From assembly GCA_017456555.1 (NCBI GenBank), contig JAFTJF010000012.1, positions 1 through 64,000 of the forward strand: a stretch of DNA of 64,000 nt, written 5' to 3'. Each line of letters opens with the position of its first letter. The stretch's first letter is position 1. A model generated the notes under the pieces. That model did not search any database, was not told the DNA's origin, and was given only the letters and a program-made list of their open reading frames with translations. This document shows positions 30,854 to 60,111 of the stretch, one piece after another. Position numbers and translations under genes: made by a program. This DNA is from Clostridia bacterium (GTDB lineage: Bacteria; Bacillota; Clostridia; TANB77; CAG-508).

Positions 30854-30952
30854 AATTATTATTTACAAAGTTTGAATTAGAAGAAGACAACCATATTAAC
30901 TGTCTGTATTTCATTACGTTCAAACAGACAGTAAAATTATTATTTGCAAAGT
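30854..30952 (+). mobile_element. Hairpin element A with 18-base flanking direct repeats (candidate miniature mobile element)
   Basis: Direct repeats 30854-30871 and 30935-30952 match at 17 of 18 positions. Between them lies the core AAGACAACCATATTAACT (30884-30901), identical to the copy at 57905-57922, then a 9-base stem (30899-30907 with 30924-30932) whose loop contains TTCATTACGTTC. The stem sequence differs from that of the other copy but pairs perfectly in both. Confidence 0.6.
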
Positions 30953-31169: not shown

Positions 31170-31200
31170 GAAGTGGAGAGAAGTGGTACAAAGTGGTAGA
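31170..31200 (+). promoter_or_regulatory. Three tandem MraZ-box-like repeats
   Basis: AAGTGG occurs three times at an exact 10-base period (31171, 31181, 31191), right after the -10 box. MraZ proteins bind tandem GTGG-containing repeats at their own promoters, so this is a strong candidate autoregulatory operator. Confidence 0.8.
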
Positions 31201-31222: not shown

Positions 31223-31648
31223 TTGTTAATTGGTGAATATGAGCATTCTCTAGACGCTAAAGGCAGATTAATAATGCCAGCAAAGCTAAGAGAAGATATT
31301 GGTGAAAAGTTCATAATAACTAAAGGTTTAGATGGTTGCTTATTCGCTTTTTCTATTGAAGAATGGAAAAATTTTGAAGCAAAACTAAGATCACTTCCAA
31401 TTTCTAATAAGGATGCAAGAGCGTTCTCTAGATTTTTCTTCGCTGGTGCTATGGATTGTGAAATCGATAAGCAAGGAAGATTCCTAATTTCAAGTAATTT
31501 AAGAGACTTTGCAGGACTTACTAAAGAAGTAGTAATTGTAGGTATGGACTCAAGAATTGAAATTTGGAGCAAAGAAAAATGGCAACAATGTGATGAAGAC
31601 ATTTCTGCAGATGAAATTGCAGAGAAAATGGAAATGCTTGGTATATAA
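31223..31648 (+). CDS. mraZ: Transcriptional regulator MraZ
   Basis: The conserved first gene of the division/cell-wall cluster, a DNA-binding ring protein made of two SpoVT-AbrB-like halves. Both halves show the DxxGR motif: [16 protein letters not shown] near 9-24 and [17 protein letters not shown] near 81-96. The 141-residue length is normal. Start is TTG, with AAAGGAG at 31207-31213. Three tandem boxes at its promoter fit autorepression of the operon. A repeat-rich 323-base gap and a hairpin separate it from rsmH. Confidence 0.96.
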
Positions 31649-57417: not shown

Positions 57418-57888
57418 GTGCCAAGAAAAGGATTTATAGCAAAAAGAGATGTGTTACCAGATCCATTATATAATAGCAAAGTTGTTACAAAATTAATTAA
57501 CAACGTAATGTTAGATGGTAAAAAATCAGTTGCTCAAGGTATCGTTTATGGTGCATTTGATATTATCAAAGAAAAAGAACAAAAAGATCCATTAGAAGTA
57601 TTTGAAGCAGCATTAGAAAACATAATGCCAGTTCTTGAAGTAAAAGCAAGAAGAGTAGGTGGAGCAACATACCAAGTACCATTAGAAATTAGACCAGAAA
57701 GAAGACAAACTTTAGGTTTAAGATGGTTAGTAACATATGCTAGAAAAAGACATGAAAAAACAATGGCTGAAAAACTAGCAGGAGAAATAATCGATGCTAT
57801 CAACGGAAACGGTGGAGCATTCAAGAAGAAAGAAGATACACATAGAATGGCTGAAGCTAATAAAGCTTTCGCACATTACAAATGGTAG
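57418..57888 (+). CDS. rpsG: 30S ribosomal protein S7
   Basis: uS7, 156 residues, nucleates assembly of the 30S head. [19 protein letters not shown], the [17 protein letters not shown] helix, and [15 protein letters not shown] are the family blocks. GTG start after AAGGAGGG. The coding end (HYKW-stop) is duplicated as a 20-base direct repeat downstream, where hairpin element B is inserted. Confidence 0.97.
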
Positions 57889-57978
57889 AATTCAGAAGTC
57901 GTTAAAGACAACCATATTAACTAACTGTAACTTCACTTTGTTCGTAACAGTTAGTTAAATTACAAATGGTAGAATTCA
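57875..57978 (+). mobile_element. Hairpin element B with 20-base flanking direct repeats (candidate miniature mobile element)
   Basis: ATTACAAATGGTAGAATTCA occurs at 57875-57894 (including the last codons and stop of rpsG) and again at 57959-57978. Between the copies lie AAGACAACCATATTAACT (57905-57922, identical to copy A) and a perfect 12-base stem (57917-57928 with 57947-57958) around a loop with TTCACTTTGTTC. The right arm touches the second direct repeat exactly. Confidence 0.65.
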
Positions 57979-58026: not shown

Positions 58027-60111
58027 ATGGCCGGAAGAGAGTATCCATTAGAAAGAACAAGAAATATAGGAATAATGGCTCATATAGATGCTGGAAAAAC
58101 AACAACAACAGAGAGAATACTTTTCTATACAGGAAAAGTTCACAAAATAGGTGAAACACACGAAGGTGCAGCAACTATGGACTGGATGGCTCAAGAACAA
58201 GAAAGAGGTATTACAATTACTTCTGCTTGTACAACATGTTTCTGGAACAATAATAGAGTAAATATTATTGACACTCCAGGACACGTTGACTTTACAGTAG
58301 AAGTTCAAAGATCTTTAAAAGTTCTTGACGGAGCTGTAACAGTATTAGCAGCTAAAGGTGGAGTTCAACCACAAACAGAAACAGTTTGGAGACAAGCTGA
58401 TAAATACATGGTACCAAGAATGGTATATGTAAACAAAATGGACATCACAGGAGCTAACTTTATGCTTTGTGTTGACCAATTAAAAAATAGATTAAAAGCA
58501 AATGCTGTTCCAATTCAATTACCAATCGGAGCAGAAGATAACTTCCAAGGAATCGTTGATTTATTAAAAATGAAAGCTTTTGTTCACAAAGATGATTTAG
58601 GAAAAATCGTTGAAGAAATAGAAGTTCCTGCTGATATGGTTGATTTAGCAACAGAATATCGTGAAAAATTAATCGAAGCAGTTGCTGAACAAGATGAAGA
58701 ATTAATGATGAAATACTTAGAAGGTGAAGAATTAACAATAGAAGAAATTAAATTAGGTTTAAGAAAAGGAACAATAGCTAATAAAATCGTTCCTGTAACT
58801 TGTGGTTCTTCATACAAAAACAAAGGTGTACAAGAACTATTAAATGCAATAGTTGACTATATGCCATCACCACTTGATATCGCTGATATCAAAGGTGAAA
58901 CATTAGATGGAACTGAAACAGTTGCTAAAACATCTGATGCTGAACCATTTGCTGCATTAGCATTTAAAATTGCAACAGATCCATTCGTTGGAAAATTATG
59001 TTTCTTTAGAGTTTATTCTGGAACATTAGAATCTGGATCAACAGTTTTAAATTCAAGCAAAGATAAAAAAGAAAGAATCGGAAGAATTCTTCAAATGCAT
59101 TCAAATTCAAGACAAGATATTGATAAAGTATATGCTGGAGATATCGCAGCAGCTGTAGGATTAAAAGAAGTTACAACAGGAAACACATTATGTGATCCTG
59201 ATCATCCAATAATCCTTGAATCAATGGAATTCCCAGAACCAGTTATTGATATTGCTATCGAACCAAAAGATAAAGCAAATCAAGAAAAAATGGGTATTGC
59301 ATTAGCAAAACTTGCTGAAGAAGATCCAACATTCAAAACATATACAAACCATGAAACTGGTCAAACAATCATCGCTGGTATGGGTGAATTACACTTAGAT
59401 ATCATCGTTGATAGATTAAAAAGAGAATTCAAAGTAGAGTGTGCTGTAGGTAAACCATCTGTAGCATACAAAGAAACTATCAGAAATGCAGTTAGAGTTG
59501 AAGGAAAATTCATTAGACAATCTGGTGGTAGAGGACAATATGGTCACGTTTGGCTAGAAATGGAACCATTAGAGCCAGGAACAGGTATTCAATTTGAAAG
59601 CAAAATCGTTGGTGGTGTTGTTCCAAAAGAATACGTTAAACCAGTTGAAGAAGGAATTAGAGAAGCTGCTGAAAGTGGAACATTAGCTGGATACCCAGTT
59701 ATCGACTTCAAAGCTACTTTAGTTGATGGTTCTTACCATGATGTTGACTCTTCAGAAATGGCATTCAAAATTGCTGGATCTATGGCTTTCAAAGAAGGTT
59801 GTAAAAAAGCTAAATCAGTTATATTAGAACCAATTATGAAAGTTGAAATAGTTGTTCCAGAAGAATACATGGGAGATGTTATTGGTGACGTAAACTCTAG
59901 ACGTGGTAGAATGGAAGGTATGGATGCAGTTGATGGATTACAAGAAATTCACTCATTTATTCCACTTTCTGAAATGTTCGGTTACGCAACAGACTTACGT
60001 TCAAAAACACAAGGTAGAGGAACATACTCTATGGAACCTTCTCACTATGAAGAAGTTCCAAAATCAATTCTTGAAACAATCGTTGCTTCAAGAGCTAAAA
60101 ATGAAGATTAA
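58027..60111 (+). CDS. fusA: Elongation factor G
   Basis: Translocase GTPase. The 694 residues show G1 [16 protein letters not shown]3 DTPGHVDF and G4 NKMD in the G domain, then domains II-V with the [14 protein letters not shown] and [14 protein letters not shown] blocks of domain IV. Length is standard and no feature of the spirochaete-type paralog is seen. GGAGG precedes the ATG. It follows rpsG with hairpin element B in between and is followed by two hairpins and a separate tuf promoter. Confidence 0.98.

Follow-up and report, generated by a model that had tools for sequence, protein, structure and literature searches.

Two short hairpin elements in the window (the whole stretch of 64,000 nucleotides analyzed here) are probably members of a non-autonomous, gene-less family of mobile DNA that inserts with duplication of its target. 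As the first-pass annotation had reported, both copies share an identical 18-base core, AAGACAACCATATTAACT, which is exact at 30884-30901 and 57905-57922, and both are bounded by direct repeats, which are 18 bases long with one mismatch in copy 1 (30854-30871 / 30935-30952) and 20 bases long and identical in copy 2 (57875-57894 / 57959-57978). The repeats are 81 and 84 bases apart, respectively, from start to start. The features of the two loci are as follows; the conserved hairpin of each copy is designated hairpin 2.

30854..30871, + strand: left direct repeat, copy 1 (AATTATTATTTACAAAGT)
30872..30883, + strand: non-conserved segment between left repeat and core, copy 1
30884..30901, + strand: conserved 18-base core, copy 1 (AAGACAACCATATTAACT)
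30899..30932, + strand: hairpin 2, copy 1, with arms at 30899-30907 and 30924-30932 and TTCAYTNNRTTC in the loop
30935..30952, + strand: right direct repeat, copy 1 (AATTATTATTTGCAAAGT), starting directly past hairpin 2
31223..31648, + strand: first gene downstream of copy 1, which we take to be mraZ
57418..57888, + strand: gene upstream of copy 2, presumably rpsG (ribosomal protein S7)
57875..57894, + strand: left direct repeat of copy 2, including the final codons and stop codon of rpsG
57895..57904, + strand: segment between left repeat and core, copy 2, with a counterpart (AAGTYTGAT-like) seen by eye in rpsG-fusA orthologues
57905..57922, + strand: conserved 18-base core, copy 2
57917..57958, + strand: hairpin 2, copy 2, with arms at 57917-57928 and 57947-57958
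57959..57978, + strand: right direct repeat, copy 2; same sequence as the left one
58027..60111, + strand: gene downstream of copy 2, presumably fusA (elongation factor G)

When up to three mismatches are allowed, the core matches the window at just these two places (0.22 matches are expected, and two of 100 shuffles reached two). The whole 13-contig genome contains five such matches, of which the exact ones are the two window copies only, and because a reversed control pattern gave 16 matches in the same genome, the other three look like chance. A comparable direct-repeat pair is present in a single tile (131 bases) among the 492 of the window; by its coordinates this is the tile of copy 2, and in this control copy 1 is split by a tile edge. 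Folded alone as DNA, both hairpins are more stable than their shuffles (z of -3.61 for copy 1 and -4.71 for copy 2), and when folded as RNA with flanks included, copy 2 is significant (z -3.46) and copy 1 is not (z -0.16). The stem sequences of the two copies are unlike (ACTGTCTGT and ACTAACTGT), yet they are paired in both. We note that three spaced GTGG motifs lie directly upstream of mraZ (31170-31199), and we take these to resemble MraZ operator boxes.

Stem covariation and extent of the family

The hairpin family to which the window copies belong is dispersed, and these copies make up a small subgroup within it. The element consists of hairpin 2 with its conserved loop, preceded in the window subgroup by a short conserved stretch, AAGACAWCCRTA, and in some other members by an additional hairpin, of variable sequence (hairpin 1). 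With a covariance model built from six copies (R1), seven of the 53 genomes of the genus have matches at E≤1e-6, 13 in total; at E≤0.1, 22 of the 53 have a match, with many of the weaker matches inspected being other hairpin repeats or chance. By inspection, the wider family has a common loop near GTAAYTCRCTTYGYTCRAAC, and a model of hairpin 2 from ten chosen sequences (R2) matched 78 of 243 genomes of the taxonomic family at E≤1e-4, in 16 of 39 genera, with as many as 23 matches in one genome (G218). In an order-level draw of 287 genomes, for which the family's share is not given, matches at E≤1e-5 were obtained in 75, with 74 of them within the same family and one (G305) elsewhere. It had been predicted in the first-pass annotation that such a model would return many copies with a conserved loop and variable stems, and this is borne out by the R2 matches and by the behavior of the stems, which had been said to differ in sequence while preserving their pairing. 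Among 106 distinct aligned hairpins, 10 of the 12 pairs are changed on both sides, and the number of cells changed on both sides is 106, as compared to 18.3 in shuffles, none of 500 being as high; pairings that are slid along the stem score far lower than the true pairing. This alignment was fitted to the model and leans toward structure, and related sequences inflate its counts, but a smaller MAFFT alignment (A3) agrees, with eight cells versus 1.8.

For hairpin 1, 29 of 108 copies score 9 or more, where 4.3 are expected from mononucleotide shuffles; only some members of the family therefore have it, and the window copies have no clear hairpin 1. Two loci hinted that hairpin 1 could be an inverted copy of the target, an idea that was dropped since in G023 the stems of hairpin 1 seem to be variations on a single sequence. 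In the window subgroup, no terminal inverted repeats were seen. An outer stem (TTCTTAGGAAA / TTTCCTAAGAA) does enclose a longer relative, of about 120 bases and with hairpin 2 in its middle, at L119, L179, L221, and L227-L229 of G218 and among relatives in g20; its several near-identical copies have perhaps been active recently. Separately, R1 has 25 matches in G037 (L028, L053), where the repeat matched is longer and has a comparable loop but an AT-rich stem.

The exact core occurs in three stretches of a wider contig collection, and two of these (from Lutibacter and a proteobacterium) have no hairpin by eye and look like chance. The phage and viral collections gave no match to the element, and a plasmid search gave one weak match, to Aerococcus tenax plasmid CP127381.1 (E 0.07), which belongs to a different order and has a similar loop with a CTGT/ACAG stem (L274, ~2000-2045), at two places in the record. 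The view of the first-pass annotation that this is not a named element stands with regard to Rfam, in which five loci gave four hits, all far under the gathering scores and none on the element, and a literature search on the loop letters and Rfam found no description of hairpin 2.

Border repeats and the rpsG-fusA site

Among recognized members, border repeats span from 11 to about 37 bases and are present at a minority of copies, with lengths that are uncertain because the copies have diverged. In addition to rpsG-fusA, they are seen at the following loci.

mraZ (G000, the genome of the window): repeat of 18 bases
lspA (G017): repeat of 11 bases, outside its tandem
tRNA-Leu(CAA) (G016 and G017): repeat of 13-18 bases
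tRNA-Cys (G263): repeat of 16-17 bases
tRNA-Leu(CAA) (G239, another genus): repeat of 27 bases
tmRNA (G239): repeat of 31 bases, tandem
tmRNA (G023): repeat of ~37 bases, diverged

The duplicated target ends thus include those of tRNA-Leu, tRNA-Cys, the tRNA-Leu of another genus, and tmRNA, and the earlier picture of a dispersed element with locus-specific repeats applies at several unrelated loci. A refuting case that had been raised with it, in which the core is a conserved part of one gene family's leader, fails, as cores lie beside rpsG-fusA, mraZ, lspA, and a tRNA-Leu gene. The left repeat begins 52-53 bases before the loop at five independent loci (rpsG, mraZ, lspA, tRNA-Leu, and tRNA-Cys), with one alignment extending to 55.

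Ungapped repeats abutting hairpin 2 with a score of at least 15 were found at nine of 94 copies, as compared to ~0.05 expected from pairing the left and right flanks of different copies, and at a score of at least 9 at 12 of 94, compared to ~2.2 expected; these counts include tandem or longer arrays (L006, L022, L053, L178) and orthologues (L002 with L019, L022 with L047), and are not all independent. With gaps allowed, 11 of 108 copies score at least 12, where 1.0 is expected, whereas a score under 10 was obtained for 95 of the 108; most copies thus have no recognizable duplication, for which age may be the reason. We considered a fixed 30-base duplication with a decayed inner end, but the gapped alignments are only suggestive and the recognizable lengths are given instead. 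Tandem arrays of the element plus one target repeat are present at three loci, with units of 106 bases (G239 L178, 508-664, after the tmRNA gene), 83 bases (G016 L022), and 82 bases (G017 L006).

The tRNA-Leu(CAA) gene was located, with the pattern used, in 16 of the 53 genus genomes. In G049 (L309), a hairpin at this gene lies between 21-base repeats 67 bases apart and its sister G048 has a single copy, and in G001 (L295) a 40-base repeat continues into its hairpin. Because R2 recognizes neither hairpin clearly (E 2.7 for G049 and 0.06 for G001), we count both as look-alikes and not as duplications by members. The region upstream of tRNA-Leu(CAA) may attract several kinds of small hairpin.

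An empty site for recognized members is available at one locus, rpsG-fusA, where 30 loci were compared, 29 of them readable. Seven genomes are filled (G000, G007, G017, G020, G021, G022, G044), and the outgroup G030 has a single repeat that reads CATTACAAATGGTAAAATTAGAAATATAAGC, equivalent to the right repeat and downstream sequence of G000. The first-pass annotation had held that an empty locus with one copy of the repeat would prove insertion; such a locus is provided here by G030, whereas for the mraZ copy no alignable empty site was found. In a tree constructed from rpsL, rpsG, and fusA DNA, all of the filled genomes lie within one clade of 11 (support 93/90), and four genomes of that clade are without the element (G004, G026, G048, and G049), with the emptiness of G026 being less sure because only ~130 bases of its spacer are covered. 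G004 is sister to the filled G007 (100/99) and keeps one copy of the repeat, as expected after recombination between repeats. The tree requires four changes, most simply one insertion and three losses, and the four empty genomes are therefore most simply losses and no proof of insertion. Comparing left with right repeat within each of five genomes gives 0 to 4 differences over 18 positions. In G022 (L020, 1565-1614) and G017 (L165, 696-746), a second element of the wider family sits in reverse orientation beside the window-type copy, which makes the rpsG-fusA spacer a landing site used repeatedly.

These same loci bear on an explanation without any dedicated transposition, in which a conserved regulatory RNA or neutral hairpin happens to be bordered by repeats that result from ordinary tandem duplication or from template switching in replication. 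The orthology of the rpsG-fusA copy in seven genomes, the tandem units of 82, 83, and 106 bases, and the strong structure would all fit, and in a distant relative, G037 (L081), the rpsG end is present as a 38-base tandem duplication with no hairpin between, which indicates that repeats at rpsG can arise without the element and counts against the insertion reading. Nonetheless, we regard this explanation as improbable; homologous cores occur at unrelated loci within unrelated repeats, orientation to flanking genes is mixed, relatives nested in the filled clade lack the element, and there is no Rfam match.

Orientation and candidate mobilizers

Open reading frames of at least 90 residues contain only four of 108 copies. 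Of the 104 outside, 26 are antisense to both neighbors, 10 are sense to both, 13 are mixed, and 55 have at most one neighbor seen. The use of both orientations argues against a cis-regulatory RNA, which would be expected on one strand, and mobile DNA is the better reading.

One candidate mobilizer for small extragenic hairpins with compensatory changes is a RAYT, a Y1 HUH transposase, as compensatory changes are described for REPINs (PMC3116915). Y1 genes are present in 29 of the 53 genus genomes and in 10 of 12 high-copy genomes, and in 15 of 111 copies the hairpin foot has CTAC directly on its 5' side, such that GTAG follows on the opposite strand. However, among 45 Y1 loci there is one good but partial hairpin 2 match, ~0.4 kb from a RAYT (L158), together with two weak ones (E 0.06 and 2), and by eye a different, GGGAC/GTCCC-type repeat is beside 13 of the 16 RAYT flanks viewed. 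GTAG is within 8 bases of the foot in none of 111 copies and CGTC in one, and the carriers G020 and G039 have no Y1 match. Moreover, target duplications are not expected from Y1 transposition of the IS200/IS605 type, and a derivative of such an element would not account for repeats of 11 to ~37 bases at a minority of copies. Flank inspection and model searching thus give no support to RAYT/Y1 as partner, and we consider a REP/REPIN-like repeat moved by RAYT to be very improbable. As a separate matter, RAYT genes at L146, L150, L156, L158, and other loci adjoin GGGACAGTCCC-type palindromes, which constitute a separate repeat family.

Variable-length duplications around a structured element would also be consistent with a SINE-like element, whose RNA copy is inserted by target-primed reverse transcription. 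The search for reverse transcriptases covered the RVT_1 family in genomes that are incomplete; RVT_1 was not found in G000 (88.5% complete) nor in 30 of the 78 carriers, and it is not associated with the element (48 of 78 carriers versus 113 of 165 non-carriers, p=0.31). A run of six A residues within 15 bases 3' of hairpin 2 is absent from all 111 copies. With no RVT_1 association, reverse transcriptase was set aside as partner, and we judge a SINE-like origin to be highly improbable. The mixed orientation and the lack of RVT_1 association argue mildly against a structured RNA as the moving form, which the first-pass annotation had entertained.

Related systems and a possible insertion mechanism

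The interpretation in the first-pass annotation is partly supported overall, and the part that is not supported in itself is the suggestion of unusual insertion chemistry from duplications of 18-20 bases. A close comparison is with YPAL/RU-2 of Yersinia, a host that belongs to another phylum. Target duplications of 3-26 bp, with both filled and empty sites, are already in print for YPAL/RU-2, and duplication of variable size by small palindromic elements is to that extent already known (PMC2229807). That element is likewise small, intergenic, and palindromic, with internal inverted repeats and variable target duplications, and the section describing it names no mobilizer (PMC2229807). It differs, by description, in being ~168 bp and not AT-rich, as compared to 63-64 bases beyond the repeat here (PMC2229807). 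The family described here has corresponding duplications of variable length at filled sites, and a single copy at an empty one for one locus, rpsG-fusA, in G030.

Other small repeats share some of these features. REPs and REPINs are described as small palindromes with compensatory stem changes that occur as doublets and clusters (PMC3116915, PMC3733652), and the present family differs in having no GTAG at the foot, no linkage to RAYT, and long border repeats. Bacterial MITEs are short, AT-rich, and non-coding, with flanking repeats that fade with age (PMC10969869). Our elements are also short, AT-rich, and non-coding, with a target duplication at a minority of copies, but in the window subgroup the ends of the element carry no terminal inverted repeats, and no parent IS was found among the Y1 families, which the search covered. 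Some mitochondrial elements of Allomyces have two hairpins. The mitochondrial repetitive or double-hairpin elements and the yeast GC clusters are tiny dispersed hairpins for which the mechanism is described as unsettled, and the Allomyces elements are said to be without flanking duplications and the yeast ones to have AG or ACT (PMC2800124, PMC4478555). The present family is in contrast bacterial, with duplications of 11 to ~37 bases.

For a mobile family that duplicates its target, we envisage that a recombinase acting in trans would recognize the folded hairpin, and that the element end just 3' of hairpin 2 would be joined to a target with staggered nicks ~11 to 37 bases apart. Filling of the gap by host repair would then produce the duplication. 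Insertions that duplicate the end of a gene, as with rpsG, tRNA, and tmRNA, would keep the gene intact and therefore survive, and the duplications may later recombine to give either tandem arrays or clean loss. A stronger version holds that this lineage-restricted family uses neither DDE nor HUH chemistry. The folded hairpin would then be read by a factor through its conserved loop, with the stem sequence left free, and nicking of opposite target strands at a distance of 11 to 37 bases would restore full tRNA and tmRNA genes after insertion; we regard this version as speculative and, on balance, unlikely.

Bacterial intergenic regions often contain small palindromic repeats, and for many of them neither the mobilizing enzyme nor the insertion chemistry is established. 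This family makes the question of the mobilizer testable, as it has many copies and a sharp right border, individual copies are present in some related species and absent from others, and there are high-copy genomes (G218, G403, and G023). If the family does indeed use neither DDE nor HUH chemistry, it would be a bacterial counterpart of the mitochondrial double-hairpin elements.
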